Source: Shewanella cutis (GTDB lineage Bacteria; Pseudomonadota; Gammaproteobacteria; Enterobacterales; Shewanellaceae). Taken from it: a stretch of DNA of 64,000 nt. Where the stretch lies: the NCBI RefSeq assembly GCF_022410515.1, contig NZ_JACSDI010000002.1, positions 248,001 to 312,000 of the forward strand. The letters run 5' to 3'. The translations under genes and the position numbers were made by a program. Every line of letters starts with the position of its first letter. The first letter of the stretch is position 1. Positions 19,970 to 27,176 of the stretch are shown one piece after another. The notes below the pieces were generated by a model. The model had not been told where the DNA came from. It ran no database searches and saw only the letters and a program-made list of their open reading frames with translations.

Positions 19970-20001
19970 AAAAAAAATGGGGAGTTAAACTCCCCATTTC
20001 A
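19970..20001 (-). terminator. Intrinsic terminator of the MMPL/DUF1329/DUF1302 operon
   Basis: AAATGGGGAGTT and its complement AACTCCCCATTT form a 12-bp stem (19975-19999), followed on the minus strand by nine Ts. It lies just after the transporter stop at 20007. Confidence 0.93.
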
Positions 20002-20006
20002 AGGTA

Positions 20007-22322
20007 TTACTTAGGTTGTCGCCAGAATACCGCCGCCAATGCTGGCAGGATAATTATGGCACCCAACATATTTACCAAAAACATGAAGGTGAGCAGGATC
20101 CCCATATCCATTTGGAATTTAAGCGCCGAGAAAAACCAAGTGCTTACCCCGATTGCCAGCGTCAAACCGGTAAAAATCACCGCACTTCCCCGCTCAACCA
20201 ACGCTTCGTAGTAAGCCTGCTGTACTGGCATACCATTTGATAACTTAGACGACATGGTCGACAGGATATAAATACCATAGTCAACCCCAATGCCCACACC
20301 CAGAGCAATAACGGGTAAAGTACTGACAGCTAAGCCAATATTAAGCATTGTCATCAAGGCCTGTGCCAGTGTCGATACCACATAGAGTGGAATGATAACC
20401 GCAACCGTGGCCTTGAAAGATTTGAAGCTGATTAAACACAGCACAAATACCGCGCCATACACATAGATCATCATAGGTAATTGCGCTTCGGCTACGGCTT
20501 CATTCGTTGCCGCCATCACACCAACAGGACCCGATGCCAGTTTAAATTGCAGCTTATCATTATCCATTTTTGCAGCGACAGCTTTGACCTTAGCGACCAC
20601 TGTTTCTATGGTTTCGGCCTTGTGATCTTTCATAAACAGATACACTGGCATCACTGAACAATCGCCATTTAATAAACCTGAAGTCGTGGGAATTTGACCA
20701 ATAGCCTGTACTAAACTCGCCGTTGTACGCGGTAGCACTTCCCACCTTGGATTGCCTTCGTTAAAGCCAGCGTTCACTTTTTTTGCCACCGAAGCCAAAC
20801 TGACAGTTGATTCAACACCAGGAGTATTACGCACTAGCCATTCAAACTCATCAATTTGAGTCAACACATCGTGATAAGTACAGGCTTCAGGGCTGGCTTC
20901 AACAATCACAGTCATCACATCCGTGGTGATAGAGAAATGATCTGTAATAAAGAAAGTGTCCAAGTTGTAGCGAGAATCCTGATGTAAAGCAGGCGCCCCA
21001 GCTTGCAAATCGCCAATTTTCATCTGGTTTGCCTTTTCTAACCCAGCAAAATACGAGGCAATAGTCGCTATAATCACCACGATCGCGTATTTAGGGGTGG
21101 CAAATTTTGCCAGATAGCGCCAAATCGCCTCGGCACGCACTTCATCCGATGTTGGTTGACCTTGTGGTGGAACGTTAATCTCGGTAAAGGAAATCACTAA
21201 CGGTAAGAGGATAAGGTTGGTGAGAATAATCACACCTACACCCAAGGATGCCGAAATCGCCAGCTCACGAATAATCCCAATATCAATGAATAATAGCGTA
21301 ATAAAACCAACAGTATCAGAGAGTAATGCCACACCACCTGGCACAAGTAAGCTACGAAACGCTGAAGCTGATGCAGCTTTAGTGGATTGCCCGTCCATCA
21401 CCCGGCGCTTTACGGCATTAATGATCTGCACGCCGTGACTCACCCCAATCGCAAATACGAGGAAAGGCACCAAAATCGACATTGGATCGAGACCGAAACC
21501 AATTACCGTCAATAAACCGAGCTGCCAGATCACCGCAGTTAAGCTACAGATTAAGGGTAATAGCGTCAGAATAATCGATTTAGAGAACAGATAAACCATC
21601 GCCGCCGTAACTAAAATGGCTATCACGAAAAACAGTAATACACCTTTGGCACCATCGGCTACATCACCTGCCATCTTGGCAAAGCCGATAATATGAATTT
21701 TCACTTTATCGGTTTCATATTTGCCACGCAGTTCTTTTTCAAGTTGGGCAGCAAAGGCAATGGTATCTAAGGGTTTACCCGTTTGTGGATCAAAATCCAT
21801 TAACTGGGCAGATACCATAGCAGCACTGTAGTCGTTAGCGATTAATCGGCCAACAATCCCTGCTTTTTCAATGTTATCTCGAACCGTATTTAAGCCCGTT
21901 TCTGTGGTAGCAAAATCAGCGGGGATCACAGGACCGCCAGCAAAACCATCCTCTACAACCTCGGTAAAACGGGTCGAAGGAGAAAACAGCGATTTCACCT
22001 GAGAACGATCAACACCGGGAATAAAAAACAGCTGATCATGGACGTTTTTAAGGGTATCAAAATAATTAGGATTAAAAATATTACCGCTGGTGTCTTCAAC
22101 CGCCACCATAATGCTATTTGCGCCCCCAAAATCCTTTTGGTGTTTGAGGTAAGTTTGCATATAGCTATGATTGAGTGGAATATTTTTAATAAATGCCGCA
22201 TCCATTTTTAATTGGCTGGCTTGGTATCCCAAAAAAAACGTGACCAAAATGAAAATGCTTACCACCCAAGCACGGTTGCGGAACAAAAATGACTCAAATC
22301 CGTTGACCAGTTTTTCTAACAT
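20007..22322 (-). CDS. MMPL/RND-family transporter
   Basis: A 771-residue inner-membrane protein of the RND superfamily, in the MMPL/HpnN-like branch. It has the duplicated layout: TM1 near residue 17, a large periplasmic loop (about 45-225), a TM cluster (about 228-395), a second TM and loop, and a final cluster (about 625-765). The second half has the proton-relay-type motif GVGIGVDYGIYILS; the equivalent place in the first half reads AIGVSHGVQII, without the aspartate. It is the last gene of an operon with YCF48-like, DUF1329 and DUF1302 proteins, suggesting export or import of a lipid-like compound. The cargo is unknown. Confidence 0.88.
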   Translation of the reverse strand: MLEKLVNGFESFLFRNRAWVVSIFILVTFFLGYQASQLKMDAAFIKNIPLNHSYMQTYLKHQKDFGGANSIMVAVEDTSGNIFNPNYFDTLKNVHDQLFFIPGVDRSQVKSLFSPSTRFTEVVEDGFAGGPVIPADFATTETGLNTVRDNIEKAGIVGRLIANDYSAAMVSAQLMDFDPQTGKPLDTIAFAAQLEKELRGKYETDKVKIHIIGFAKMAGDVADGAKGVLLFFVIAILVTAAMVYLFSKSIILTLLPLICSLTAVIWQLGLLTVIGFGLDPMSILVPFLVFAIGVSHGVQIINAVKRRVMDGQSTKAASASAFRSLLVPGGVALLSDTVGFITLLFIDIGIIRELAISASLGVGVIILTNLILLPLVISFTEINVPPQGQPTSDEVRAEAIWRYLAKFATPKYAIVVIIATIASYFAGLEKANQMKIGDLQAGAPALHQDSRYNLDTFFITDHFSITTDVMTVIVEASPEACTYHDVLTQIDEFEWLVRNTPGVESTVSLASVAKKVNAGFNEGNPRWEVLPRTTASLVQAIGQIPTTSGLLNGDCSVMPVYLFMKDHKAETIETVVAKVKAVAAKMDNDKLQFKLASGPVGVMAATNEAVAEAQLPMMIYVYGAVFVLCLISFKSFKATVAVIIPLYVVSTLAQALMTMLNIGLAVSTLPVIALGVGIGVDYGIYILSTMSSKLSNGMPVQQAYYEALVERGSAVIFTGLTLAIGVSTWFFSALKFQMDMGILLTFMFLVNMLGAIIILPALAAVFWRQPK

Positions 22323-22353
22323 CTTATCGGCCCTGTTATTGTTGTTTTATAAT

Positions 22354-23364
22354 TTATGGCTTAAGTGTGAGTAGCCCTTGGCTACCCGATAACCACACAT
22401 TCCCTTGGTTATCTTTTGCAATTGAAACTAAGTTTTCCCCTTGGCGACGAGTCACAATACTCGAACTATCATCCTGATTTAACTGGATAACAATGCCGGC
22501 ATTACCTACAAGATATAGGCTAGTCTCTGAGGCTGCCATGACCCCGTTGATAGATGATTTAACGGGCATATCAATCTCATCCCATTGGGCAAGGCTCAAA
22601 TCTGCCTTAAAGACGTGCCCTCTTAGTCCCATCACGTAAACCGCGTCCTGCAGCTGAATGGCATTAAACATAGAGCCATCATAATCGAACCCCGTGCGGG
22701 TAAAGTTTTGGCCTTTGTCTGCCGACATAGCCACTAAACCAAGCTCTCCCACCAATAATAGGCGTCCATCCTTAAGCGCTATCATCCGATTAAAATGTGG
22801 CAATAAAGATGCTCGCTCAGTGAGGTAGGCCGCTTGATCGCTGTTTTTTAATTCAGCGAGGTAGGAGACGTCCTCTTCGGCAAGCAGCTCTTCATGGAAT
22901 TCCTCTGTCCAATTTGCGCCGCCATCGCGGGTGCGATAAAAGAGTCCGTAGGCGCCTATCGCCATACCTTCTTGCTCATTTAAAAACAACACATCAAGGA
23001 AAGGCTTTTCGATTTCAGTAGACTGCATTTGTAACGACCAAGTCTGGCCGCCATCTTGGGTATGCAAAATAGTGGCATCGTGCCCAACAGCCCAACCGAG
23101 TTTTTCATTTAAAAAGAAAACCTTTGTTAACTGAACGGAAGTCGGTGTAGGGACTTGTTGCCATTTGTCATTTAGCACTAACACATGGCCTCGCTCACCA
23201 ACAGCAACTAACTGCTTGCCAGCATGGGCAATATCTAACACTAAAGAAGATGCTGCCAGAGGCTGAATTTGCGGGAAACGCTCTGACTGTGCAGAAAACG
23301 AAGGGGAAGAAAATAAACAACCAACACTTATCGCAGCGACACATTGAAGGATGCGAAACGACAT
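22354..23364 (-). CDS. YCF48-related periplasmic beta-propeller protein
   Basis: A 336-residue exported protein; the signal peptide ends around FSA near residue 25. It contains repeated propeller blades typical of the YCF48/HCF136 family: LNEKLGWAVGHDATILHTQDGGQTW, of which the GxDGxxW-like ends (TQDGGQTW, TRDGGANW, SADKGQNF) recur. In cyanobacteria the family assists photosystem II assembly; in heterotrophs it appears beside MMPL transporters and probably acts as a binding or assembly factor. It lies 31 bases before the transporter gene on the same strand. Confidence 0.87.
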   Translation of the reverse strand: MSFRILQCVAAISVGCLFSSPSFSAQSERFPQIQPLAASSLVLDIAHAGKQLVAVGERGHVLVLNDKWQQVPTPTSVQLTKVFFLNEKLGWAVGHDATILHTQDGGQTWSLQMQSTEIEKPFLDVLFLNEQEGMAIGAYGLFYRTRDGGANWTEEFHEELLAEEDVSYLAELKNSDQAAYLTERASLLPHFNRMIALKDGRLLLVGELGLVAMSADKGQNFTRTGFDYDGSMFNAIQLQDAVYVMGLRGHVFKADLSLAQWDEIDMPVKSSINGVMAASETSLYLVGNAGIVIQLNQDDSSSIVTRRQGENLVSIAKDNQGNVWLSGSQGLLTLKP

Positions 23365-23384
23365 ACAAACTTCCTTAAACTAAT

Positions 23385-23407
23385 GAGGGGCGCTTAGCGC
23401 CCCTTTT
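23385..23407. other. Intercistronic hairpin in the DUF1302 operon
   Basis: AGGGGCGC and its complement GCGCCCCT form a stem of 8-9 bp around a short loop between the DUF1329 and YCF48-like genes. The minus strand has no T tract after it, so it is more likely an mRNA stability or processing hairpin than a terminator. Confidence 0.6.
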
Positions 23408-23418
23408 ACCGTGGCTGA

Positions 23419-24783
23419 TTAACGGATACCTTCGCGACGCAGCGCATCTGGGGTAAAGTTTGCTTCACTCAGTTTGGCATCAAAGTTATACATGCCGCTC
23501 TGGTTGTCTAACCCCATGGCCAAGTAACGACGTGACTGCAGATCGTGGAACACTTCTAAGGTATCCCACTGCGCGGGAACTTCGTAATAGTTCAAACCAT
23601 GGGCAACCGCCACACGGTAAAGTTCATCACGGTTGTCGTACAGATCGGCGATCGATACTTGCCATGAGTCTTCGTCAAGATACATCACGCGAGTTTTGTA
23701 GATATGGCGCATACCGTCTTTCAGTGTCGCCTTTACTTCCCATACGCGGTGTTTTTCCCAACGGACAAACTCAGGATTAATATGACCGGGTTTTAAAATC
23801 TGATCATATTTCAGCTTATCTGAATGCAATTTGTAATCGTTGTAAGGAATATAGATTTCTTTCTTGCCCACAAGCTCCCAGTTATAACGCACGGGTGAAC
23901 CGTTAAACATGTCGAAATCGTCCGTAGTGCGCAGACCATCGGATACAGTGCCCGGTGTATCAAACGCAACGTTTGGTGCCTTACGAACACGACGCTGGCC
24001 AGTGTTATAGGTCCATGCTTGGCGCGGTAACGCTTCTTGGTCCATGGTTTCTTTCACTAGTAGTGCTGTTCCTGCAAGGCGCGCGGGTTGAGTGACGACC
24101 TGTTTGAAGTAGAATAAGGTGTTACTGGCTTTTAACTGATCGAGGGTGATCTCTGGACGAGAATACTCGAAGCGAATTTCCTCTGCCGTTTCAACTAAGG
24201 TGTAGCTACCATCGGCCGTTGGTGCCGCTTGGCTACGCGAGGTTTCCACATCCACACCACGGAAGCGTAGAATATGGTTCCAAATCGCTTCTAGGCCATT
24301 AGCAGGGATCGGGAATGGAATACCAATTGATGCCCCTGAAATCCCATTACCTTGTGCCACCAGTTCAGCACGGGTTGCATTGGCTTTAGTCGCATCGTAG
24401 ACAAATTGCGGCACTGACGCGCTGCGGCGCGTTTTGTACACATTCATCTTGTAAGTATCAGGATAAAGCTCAAACAATTTCATCTGACCTGGTGTCAAAT
24501 AATCTTTATATTGGGCTTTATTTGCATTGGTAATAGTGAATTCAATTTTATCCTCGGGGAAAGGATCAGGATGATGCATTCCCTTTGTGTAACCCGCTAC
24601 AGGCTTAGTAATACCACCATCCCATGCCGGAATTGAACCATCAGCATTACCTGCTTTTTCTGCACCTAATGGGGTTAATTCGTTACCCAGTTTTGCGGCT
24701 TCTGCTTCAGAGACTTTCGCCATCGTTGCTGGTGCTACAAGTGCCATAATCACCGCACTTGCCAATATCGACAGTTTCTTCAT
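23419..24783 (-). CDS. DUF1329 periplasmic protein (LolB-like fold family)
   Basis: A 454-residue protein with a Sec signal peptide (MKKLSILASAVIMALVAPAT, cleavage near AMA at 22). The mature start (LGNELTPLGAEKAGNADGSIP) is split by the family's conserved TPLGAEKAGNADG and IPAWDGG motifs, diagnostic of DUF1329. The family is thought to adopt a lipoprotein-carrier (LolA/LolB-like) fold, which would suit moving a hydrophobic molecule through the periplasm; that is inference. It lies 12 bases after the DUF1302 gene, so the two are co-transcribed. Confidence 0.9.
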   Translation of the reverse strand: MKKLSILASAVIMALVAPATMAKVSEAEAAKLGNELTPLGAEKAGNADGSIPAWDGGITKPVAGYTKGMHHPDPFPEDKIEFTITNANKAQYKDYLTPGQMKLFELYPDTYKMNVYKTRRSASVPQFVYDATKANATRAELVAQGNGISGASIGIPFPIPANGLEAIWNHILRFRGVDVETSRSQAAPTADGSYTLVETAEEIRFEYSRPEITLDQLKASNTLFYFKQVVTQPARLAGTALLVKETMDQEALPRQAWTYNTGQRRVRKAPNVAFDTPGTVSDGLRTTDDFDMFNGSPVRYNWELVGKKEIYIPYNDYKLHSDKLKYDQILKPGHINPEFVRWEKHRVWEVKATLKDGMRHIYKTRVMYLDEDSWQVSIADLYDNRDELYRVAVAHGLNYYEVPAQWDTLEVFHDLQSRRYLAMGLDNQSGMYNFDAKLSEANFTPDALRREGIR

Positions 24784-24795
24784 TGTTATAGTCCT

Positions 24796-26838
24796 TTAGA
24801 TCGAATACTTGATATTGAATGAAATATAATCACGATCTGACATCGCGTTGGTTGTTCCTACACCGCCAAAGAAGTTGTTGTAGGATAAGTCTGCACCCCA
24901 ACGGTTTTGGTATTCGAAATTAACACCTAAAGCCACTGACTTACGTCCTTCGGTAAAGAGGAACATAGGATCAGGGGTAATACCATCAACGTCGTGTGAG
25001 AAGATCATTCGTGGAGACATGTTTACACCAGCAAACAAGTTATTGAACTCGCCTTTGGCCACTAAACGGTATCCCCACGCGAAATCTGTTGGGAATGGGT
25101 TAGTTTCAGGGCCATTATGCAGCGCTTGAATAATCCCTGGCATATCGGGATTACCGCCAGAACGTGCAGTACCAGGACCATTGAGACGCAGTTCATCAAA
25201 GCCAGGCATATCATGGATCCACACCCCACCGACTTCAGCCAACATTGTCAAGTTATCCAGTCCCAGTGTTGGACCAAATAAGTGAGTGAACGTGGCTTGA
25301 GCCTGAGTAGTGTCGCGGCGGATAAAACCATCAACGGTTTCACCAGGTTTTACCCCATCAATTTGTGAAATACCGTTGAAATCTGGGCGAATACCCGCGT
25401 TAGCTAATTGTTGTGGCATACCCGCAAACAGCAGTTCTACGTCATCGATTTGCAACGGTTCATCTTGACGGTGGGCAATTTCAGCACCGACTGAGGTATC
25501 CCCCAGTGAAGTGTTAAAACTAAAGCCGTAGAGTTTAATATCTTCAGGATAAACAATTTGCGCCTTAGAGAAGCTTTTTAAGCTCAGCAGCAAGTCGCGA
25601 TTAATATCACCAGCATTTTGCCCAAGTACCGCTAAATCGGATAACAACGCACCTGTGCTAAAATCAGCTGCAGTACCGCTGATCAGCGGACGGCGGCTAT
25701 GGTAGTTCATAAAGTAGAAACCAAACTCGGTATCGCCCAATTCAGGCGCATAATAACCTAGCTTGATACCATATTGGCCATCATTACTCGGCTCTTGCTC
25801 ATCCTGCACTAAGGTCACTTTAGTTGGATACGCCAACGCCATCGCAACGAGCTGCGATGTTGGAATTGTCTGACCGCTGGCGATCATTCCTGCAAGACGT
25901 TGATATTCCTGCATCACAAAGTCTAAATTAATATCAGGGTTAGCGTTAAAACCTAACTGTGCGTTTTGGTTGTAACCACCAAACCCCGCAAAATCGTTAG
26001 TCGCAAAAATTGAACCGGGTGTTGGAACCCAAATTGGTTCCCAATCATATTGATAGAAAGCTTCTACCGATAAATTCTCCGTGATCCCTAAAGAGGCCCA
26101 AACCATACCCTGAGGTCTAAAGGCTTCTTTCAGTTCAGCGCCAGGAGCATTAAGAATGTTCAAATCAACGGGGTTAATCTCACCGATACCGTGGGCGATA
26201 AGGGTACTTTCACCCCAAGAGACGACTTGGTTACCCACACGGATAGACAGAGGATTTGCACCGTCATTCAAATCAAAATTCGCATAGATGAAGGCATCCA
26301 GCAGACGGATGTCCTTACATTGCACTTCTGAAGCACGGTTATCTTGGCAAGGATCGTACTCTTTCCCTGTTAACGGGTCATTGTAGTCAAAGTTTCCATC
26401 GTTTAATTTACGATCGTAGAAATACATGCCACGGGCAAATAAACCATAGTTTTCATACTTCAGAGACAGCTCATGTAATCCTTTAACGATCTCAGAAGTA
26501 GTATCACCTTGAGAATAAAGTAAATTACTTAAGTCGTTGTTGCTTGAATAGGAGCCAGGTTGCGCCCAAATCTCAGCAGAAGTGTATTTAGTATTGCCAA
26601 AAGCAGTATAATTTGACCAATCAAATTGTGGCTGGTTAACCTTACCGATTTGTCCATCCCAATCGCGCTCACCCACACGCCAACTGGCACCCGCGGTCCA
26701 AGTTGAGTCAAAAGAACCTTGCACCTCCCCCCAATCGAACGCAACCGCATTAACATTCGACACCATCAATAAACTCAATGCCGACGCCACCCCCAAAGCA
26801 AGCGCCGACTTGTTAAAACTTTTTTTAACAATTTTCAT
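24796..26838 (-). CDS. DUF1302 outer-membrane beta-barrel protein
   Basis: A 680-residue exported protein; the signal peptide ends around VNA near residue 32. The mature N-terminus (GSFDSTWTAGASWRVGERD) is the DUF1302 signature, and the chain ends in an alternating aromatic strand (YISFNIKYSI) typical of outer-membrane barrels. The sequence is rich in amphipathic strands, Asn, Gly and aromatic residues, with VGNQVVSWGES as a conserved DUF1302 motif. DUF1302/DUF1329 pairs occur beside genes for steroid, alkane or polyester use in other proteobacteria. It is the first gene of the operon. An AGAGC sits upstream of the ATG. Confidence 0.9.
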   Translation of the reverse strand: MKIVKKSFNKSALALGVASALSLLMVSNVNAVAFDWGEVQGSFDSTWTAGASWRVGERDWDGQIGKVNQPQFDWSNYTAFGNTKYTSAEIWAQPGSYSSNNDLSNLLYSQGDTTSEIVKGLHELSLKYENYGLFARGMYFYDRKLNDGNFDYNDPLTGKEYDPCQDNRASEVQCKDIRLLDAFIYANFDLNDGANPLSIRVGNQVVSWGESTLIAHGIGEINPVDLNILNAPGAELKEAFRPQGMVWASLGITENLSVEAFYQYDWEPIWVPTPGSIFATNDFAGFGGYNQNAQLGFNANPDINLDFVMQEYQRLAGMIASGQTIPTSQLVAMALAYPTKVTLVQDEQEPSNDGQYGIKLGYYAPELGDTEFGFYFMNYHSRRPLISGTAADFSTGALLSDLAVLGQNAGDINRDLLLSLKSFSKAQIVYPEDIKLYGFSFNTSLGDTSVGAEIAHRQDEPLQIDDVELLFAGMPQQLANAGIRPDFNGISQIDGVKPGETVDGFIRRDTTQAQATFTHLFGPTLGLDNLTMLAEVGGVWIHDMPGFDELRLNGPGTARSGGNPDMPGIIQALHNGPETNPFPTDFAWGYRLVAKGEFNNLFAGVNMSPRMIFSHDVDGITPDPMFLFTEGRKSVALGVNFEYQNRWGADLSYNNFFGGVGTTNAMSDRDYISFNIKYSI

Positions 26839-27176
26839 TTTAGCTCTCCGTACCCTGCTGGATTCTTTGTTCTTGGAATTACAACCAACATCTTGTTAGC
26901 TCACAGGTAACATCATTGTTACAGCAATTAATCCCTATGAGCAAGGCACAGTTAGAGAAAATTTTCCGAAGAATTAAGCACGTAGATACATTTATATCAT
27001 CTAGTACAAAGATAGGATTTAAATTAGAAAAGCAGAAGATAGGAATAAATGAAAAAAACAAGATAAAAAATCATATTTTTCATAAACATAATTACAAATA
27101 AAATAACATATTTTCTGGTTCGTAATTAGTCGACCGTTTAAAGTAATTGCTCTAAGTTAAAATCAACAATTTGTTT
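26839..27176. promoter_or_regulatory. AT-rich region upstream of the DUF1302 operon
   Basis: About 340 bases with low GC and no supported ORF, between the DUF1302 start and the DUF2835 gene stop. It must hold the promoter of the four-gene operon. Long A-rich stretches around 27020-27110 resemble an UP element or a silencer-bound region. No operator palindrome was clear. Confidence 0.5.

Follow-up and report, generated by a model that had tools for sequence, protein, structure and literature searches.

A core Shewanella operon that very likely encodes an AmeABCD-type trans-envelope transporter for hydrophobic molecules

Four minus-strand genes at positions 20007-26838 of a 64,000-nt stretch of the Shewanella cutis genome (contig NZ_JACSDI010000002.1, positions 248,001 to 312,000; hereafter the window) lie between pepN, which encodes an M1 aminopeptidase, and a gene for an NAD-glutamate dehydrogenase, and the locus very likely belongs to the AmeABCD-type four-part transporters. 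Gene A (24796-26838) encodes a 680 aa DUF1302 protein, modelled as an outer-membrane barrel and homologous to AmeA (PF06980, 1.3e-155), gene B (23419-24783) a 454 aa, probably exported DUF1329 protein homologous to AmeB (PF07044, 5.6e-155), gene C (22354-23364) a 336 aa, probably exported YCF48/BNR-like propeller homologous to AmeC (PF14870, PSII_BNR, 3e-18) and gene D (20007-22322) a 771 aa HAE3/MMPL RND pump homologous to AmeD (PF03176, MMPL, 6.7e-25). The intergenic gaps A/B, B/C and C/D measure 12, 54 and 31 bases. On recheck these values and the lengths and coordinates of the four open reading frames (ORFs) agreed exactly with the original prediction, which had read the locus from sequence alone as an unnamed trans-envelope transport system. 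We infer that A-D are co-transcribed. A terminator-like hairpin of 12 pairs with a T tail follows D on the minus strand (19974-20000); this call is weak on its own because our hairpin scan returned 15 terminator-like sites in total against 12.1 in shuffles.

B has a second Pfam match, LolA_like (PF17131), at 9.1e-8, whose 32.4 bits exceed the cut-off of 30, and D matches the NCBIfam HAE3 model (TIGR00921) at 3.7e-47 with 160.8 bits, below the cut-off of 351.9. Judged by inspection rather than with signal-peptide or topology programs, A, B and C each carry a hydrophobic leader at the N-terminus, and the hydropathy of D is RND-like with two large loops. The aromatic C-terminal strand formerly ascribed to A does not hold at its last residue, which is Ile here, whereas the DUF1302 family consensus ends in Phe. 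The partners of AcrAB-TolC-kind (HAE1) pumps, a membrane-fusion adaptor or a TolC-type channel, are absent from the Pfam assignments of the four proteins and were not sought elsewhere. The BstA sterol transporter model (NF045600) gave D 22.1 of 1400 bits, below its cut-off.

Four homologous genes in the identical order, DUF1302-DUF1329-YCF48/COG4447-HAE3 RND, constitute AmeABCD of Castellaniella defragrans 65Phen, where the same cassette has a deletion phenotype (PMC6394551), and the system therefore loses its standing as an unnamed one. We located the ame locus in C. defragrans strain DSM 12141 via a published primer, and the recovered ORF lengths agree with the published ones, AmeA at 605, AmeB at 451 and, after later starts, AmeC at 316 and AmeD at 787 (PMC6394551). 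The window proteins share with their Ame counterparts only 28-43% identity, namely 31% for A (584 columns), 41% for B, 28% for C (265 columns) and 43% for D (774 columns), with BLASTP E-values to AmeA-AmeD of 3e-61, 3e-105, 1e-31 and 0. They also differ in setting, since AmeABCD sits in a monoterpene island and is monoterpene-induced (PMC6394551), whereas pepN and the glutamate dehydrogenase gene flank the Shewanella copy. The C. defragrans genome that carries ame has three DUF1329 genes and so may hold further AB-type copies. Literature on the Shewanella genes themselves was found neither by locus tag (the tags were guessed) nor by DUF name combined with Shewanella, a search that returned only a MetJ paper whose single DUF1302 passage concerns Kangiella; a search for steroid and DUF1302 gave no DUF1302 paper among the matches listed. 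This kind of system is thus already known, if thinly studied, and what is new here is a pump signature and a two-module layout.

The pump signature of D consists of Ser295-His296 in transmembrane helix 4 (TM4) and Asp681-Tyr682 in TM10. In a 52-row alignment, Ser-His at TM4 and Asp-Tyr at TM10 are each found in all scorable Ame-type pumps, AmeD included (45/45 in both cases), and Ser-His at TM4 occurs in none of the six other MMPL/RND rows. MmpL pumps carry Asp-Tyr in both helices. From the alignment we propose the Ser-His/Asp-Tyr pair as a candidate mark of the Ame kind. A quick tree places AmeD and the window pump in one ingroup of 42 of the 47 rows, with a support of 86 and a long AmeD branch. 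The signature common to the two speaks for a place of D in the AmeD lineage. Two pumps were left out of the tree: that of the Shewanella locus L118, which is broken up (ORFs of 586 and 202 aa), and the fused pump of L080, where the D ORF measures 1336 aa.

The trans-envelope set that had been proposed is supported, with a barrel model of A, a predicted LolA fold in B and an MMPL-type pump in D. The A model, with a mean predicted local distance difference test (pLDDT) score of 85.3, is a barrel, a check that the original prediction had named, and matches the Occ/OprD porin OpdQ (Z 22.5, root-mean-square deviation (rmsd) 3.2, 306 aligned) and AlgE (Z 20.8); no FadL-type barrel appears among the matches listed in the structure comparison. 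As modelled, the fold of A is that of an Occ/OprD-like outer-membrane barrel. The B model (pLDDT 92.1) adopts a LolA fold across residues 160-453, the comparison having barely tested the residues before 159, and resembles P. gingivalis LolA3 (9tp6; Z 23.0, rmsd 2.3, 237 aligned), the solved DUF1329 protein 4z48 (Z 20.2), 3bk5 (Z 20.2) and P. gingivalis LolB (Z 11.2). While residues 160-453 of B thus have the predicted fold in common with the LolA/LolB carriers, B differs from them in its length of 454 aa, its extra N-terminal part and its link to an RND pump. By profile, D matches the solved structures of MmpL5, MmpL4, MmpL3, HpnN (6wu0, 5khn) and yeast NCR1. HpnN and D have the HAE3/MMPL fold family in common, but D falls far below the cut-off of the HpnN model TIGR03480 (61.5 of 751.85 bits), and HpnN works without a partner operon (PMC6394551).

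DUF1329 is present in 85 of 87 genomes of the genus Shewanella, with one copy in the source genome, and the ABCD locus is a Shewanella core locus. Neighbours of pepN and glutamate-dehydrogenase size flank it in 13 of the 14 other Shewanella main-copy loci fetched (flank identity was checked with Pfam in the window, plus pepN in the sister-family locus L068); the exception is L118, where the usual neighbours are missing. In the non-Shewanella locus L084, ABCD comes after an M1 aminopeptidase and is followed by an unannotated 1499-aa ORF of glutamate-dehydrogenase-like size, an arrangement that could possibly reflect old synteny. Across 229 genomes of the class, at a threshold of at least 150 bits that is our own choice, DUF1329 occurs in 40 and DUF1302 in 37, all 37 lying within the 40 (Fisher p 1.4e-39, which is not to be taken literally because the genomes are related). 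At E 0.001 the counts become 104 and 65, many of the added matches being short or partial.

Outside Shewanella, A-B-C-D is contiguous in 24 of 30 chosen loci having an A gene, 22 by the ORF map and two by tblastn (L071 and L072, in which the ORF caller missed B-D and C plus D, respectively, because of antisense ORFs). All four genes are present in a different arrangement in L090 and L094, and A-B stands alone within the stretch examined in L076, L086, L088 and L092, of which L086 and L088 are short contigs. The 30 loci comprise the strongest DUF1329 matches and some weaker ones, so that the order counts lean towards conserved cassettes. Left out beforehand were L068 (sister family), L085, L087, L091 and L093 (no A gene called), L095 (tandem copies) and L096-L099 (weak relatives). 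Co-occurrence beyond Shewanella, another check that had been named for the prediction, is thus found in both the genome counts and the gene order. Among the loci left out, tblastn reveals all four genes of L093 in another arrangement, and L095 carries two tandem ABCD-like sets with additional B copies. L096, L097 and L098 present a second architecture, with, in order, an MMPL pump from which the Ser-His mark is absent, a protein of some 270 aa where B would stand (a weak DUF1329 match in L096 and L097) and a weak DUF1302 relative.

Near-universal presence in the genus and the kept flanks (13/14) would suit a housekeeping set by which a lipid of the cell itself is moved from one membrane to the other. 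The predicted LolA fold of B also fits such a role, as does the presence among the profile matches of D of the MMPL relative HpnN, which moves lipids. At the 150-bit level, however, the set is absent from 189 of the 229 class genomes, and the mutants of relatives are described by phenotypes on foreign hydrophobic substrates. The Castellaniella ame mutant moreover grows normally on acetate (PMC6394551), and we consider a housekeeping role improbable.

Between B and C the minus strand holds a GC-rich hairpin of 8 pairs with a loop of 3 and a tail that is not T-rich (23386-23404). The original prediction, which gave a shared terminator after D, had missed this second hairpin. When a locus counts as passing if no more than 1 in 60 mononucleotide shuffles matches its best hairpin, a hairpin after B passes in 13 of 15 Shewanella main-copy loci, the window counted (L103 and L104 fail), with stems that vary in sequence while the pairing is kept. 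The same mark is passed in 12 of 23 other loci, with T-containing tails in L064, L067, L070 and L081. At z > 3, the mark applied to the other gaps, a hairpin follows B in 24 of 38 loci, A in 3 and C in 1; the search covered 100 bases after B against 60 after A and C and may extend into the next gene. The hairpin after B would thus divide the operon into an [AB] and a [CD] module.

Separate AB and CD modules are further suggested by AB-only copies and by two locus pairs in Pseudomonas putida. AB occurs without CD in the four A-B loci named above, and the same holds for the additional Shewanella copies L107, L108, L112 and L114. In P. putida, we take PP_2018 and PP_2019 to be YCF48 and MMPL proteins. 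DUF1302 and DUF1329 proteins (PP_0765/PP_0766) are functionally tied there to a periplasmic protein and an efflux transporter (PP_2018/PP_2019) through a common Tween 20 phenotype, and a transport system was proposed; co-folding linked DUF1329 weakly to barrel and transporter, and the transporter strongly to its periplasmic partner (PMC10866462). By their locus numbers these genes occupy two separate loci, and their likeness to the Shewanella set is drawn from their description.

Upstream of A, a block conserved in Shewanella (26880-26922) contains the palindrome GTAACA-N4-TGTTAC (26907-26922, 69-84 bases upstream of the A start and conserved in relatives) and an adjoining second inverted repeat. 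A distal conserved block, ACTTYAAACG (27130-27144), lies by the end of a small upstream ORF. A regulon for the palindrome was considered and rejected: 7 of 8 genomes have the exact match here, and 4 further sites compare with 5 control sites. Control by the fatty-acid regulator PsrA was likewise rejected. The upstream block in relatives resembled two inverted TCAAAC half-sites of what we presume to be the PsrA consensus, but matches stayed at control level, the TCAAAC pattern with up to 2 mismatches giving 50 and 47 matches in the source genome against 54 and 54 in the control, and the full palindrome with at most 1 mismatch giving only control-level matches in 3 genomes.

The original prediction had also argued that no catabolic genes lie nearby and hence that the cargo probably belongs to the cell's own lipids. 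The window flanks are indeed uninformative; the inference is weak because extra Shewanella AB copies adjoin a FadD-type ligase, an acyl-CoA dehydrogenase or beta-oxidation genes. An AraC regulator, a FadD-type ligase and an acyl-CoA dehydrogenase adjoin L107 (by Pfam) and L108 (by matching ORFs), and the beta-oxidation genes SDR, MaoC, thiolase and enoyl-CoA hydratase (ECH) adjoin L114 (by Pfam) and L112 (by matching ORFs). Elsewhere, a FadD-type ligase below curated cut-offs flanks L064 and L073, and in L082 a gene of the wax-ester synthase family begins 3 bases after D. The near flanks of the 30 chosen loci (109 proteins) include cNMP-binding 5, AMP-binding 4, HATPase_c 4, Lipase_bact_N 4, thiolase 2 and ECH 2, and the farther flanks (92 proteins) PP2C 4 and ECH 2. 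The 25 families listed for the latter do not include lipase or AMP-binding, and since an unlisted family may still have up to 2 members there, an enrichment of lipid genes is suggestive only.

VolA-like lipases flank 4 of the 30 loci (L069, L075, L077 and L073, the last with 47% identity to the L069 protein), which makes fewer than four independent cases because L069 and L075 are tree sisters. The source genome encodes one PF12262 (VolA-type) lipase, at L159 1-2316 and away from the operon, with a lipoprotein-signal-like N-terminus. Together with the predicted LolA fold of B, these lipases would agree with a Lol-like route in which B carries lipoproteins and a lipase or other lipoprotein is placed at the cell surface. 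We regard such a route as very unlikely, given that the pump is an RND protein and not a LolCDE-kind ABC transporter, that monoterpene and phenanthrene phenotypes need no lipase and that most loci are without one.

Relatives have been associated with several hydrophobic substrates. A DUF1329 deletion in Delftia has a phenanthrene phenotype (as cited in PMC13101534), and Delftia nanopods contain DUF1302 and DUF1329 proteins (PMC3110197). In Thalassolituus on C28 alkane, an MMPL-LolA protein and a porin rise, so that MMPL, LolA-like and porin elements are raised together on a hydrophobic substrate (PMC6304351); here the MMPL and LolA parts are fused in one protein, and the likeness is again drawn from the description.

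The ame deletion mutant grows poorly on limonene as sole carbon source and normally on perillyl alcohol, and with acetate it grows normally up to 5 mM limonene and less above (PMC6394551). Its authors favour efflux, in which the complex expels toxic hydrophobics from the inner membrane or the periplasm, B and C serving as adaptors and A providing the exit duct. Inhibition above 5 mM even in the presence of acetate favours their view, as does the inhibitor PAbN, which raises Nile Red accumulation in the Castellaniella wild type (PMC6394551), and RND relatives such as MmpL and HpnN bear names as exporters or as lipid exporters. The sole-carbon defect, the normal growth on perillyl alcohol and the relief by acetate, on the other hand, fit failed uptake as well as toxicity; Nile Red efflux kinetics are almost identical in mutant and wild type (PMC6394551), and catabolic genes beside AB copies suit uptake better. 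Efflux is in our view a possible explanation, if less likely than not.

The four gene products very probably form a machine for the passage of oily molecules through all layers of the envelope. For its cargo and direction taken together, the reading we put forward, tentatively and at somewhat less than even confidence, is that of an Ame-type transporter with AB as shuttle and specificity module and CD as proton-driven motor, acting on foreign hydrophobic cargo with net uptake. Using a LolA-type cavity, B would ferry one hydrophobic molecule at a time between outer-membrane A and a C-D complex at the inner membrane. D would be driven by protons through Asp681-Tyr682 of TM10, aided by the invariant Ser-His in TM4, and the hairpin after B would set the AB:CD ratio. 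The cargo may be hydrophobic compounds, neutral or acyl, that come from the surroundings, for instance fatty esters or products of lipolysis. Net uptake for catabolism is the weakest step of this proposal; we tentatively put it slightly ahead of efflux because catabolic genes accompany AB copies.

Several points weigh against this reading. Bacterial RND pumps are generally known to work outwards, the ingroup uniting AmeD with the window pump has a support of 86 only with AmeD on its long branch, and the window locus itself was found to have neither lipid nor catabolic genes as neighbours. Elsewhere, too, flanking families are mostly unrelated, cNMP-binding and kinase domains being as frequent as lipid ones, so that catabolic and lipid neighbours are a minority signal. 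Export is what the Ame authors infer, high limonene inhibits their mutant even with acetate, and the de-energised mutant takes up slightly more Nile Red (PMC6394551).

The observation behind the original prediction is confirmed and its interpretation partly supported. We also speculate, with some reserve, on a proton-driven RND importer with exchangeable AB cassettes, each an outer-membrane barrel and a LolA-fold shuttle and some associated with catabolic clusters. These would deliver hydrophobic nutrients to one core CD motor that all of them share and whose Ser-His/Asp-Tyr relay is unusual. If this were true, Gram-negatives would possess an energised uptake of neutral lipids and hydrocarbons parallel to FadL, and an RND pump serving import would surprise specialists. 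Pfam still lists DUF1302 and DUF1329 under names for domains of unknown function, yet mutants of relatives show monoterpene, Tween 20 and phenanthrene phenotypes. A tractable genus with a near-universal copy, together with the predicted carrier fold, the signature of the pump and the division into AB and CD, makes the cargo and direction of this machine directly testable.

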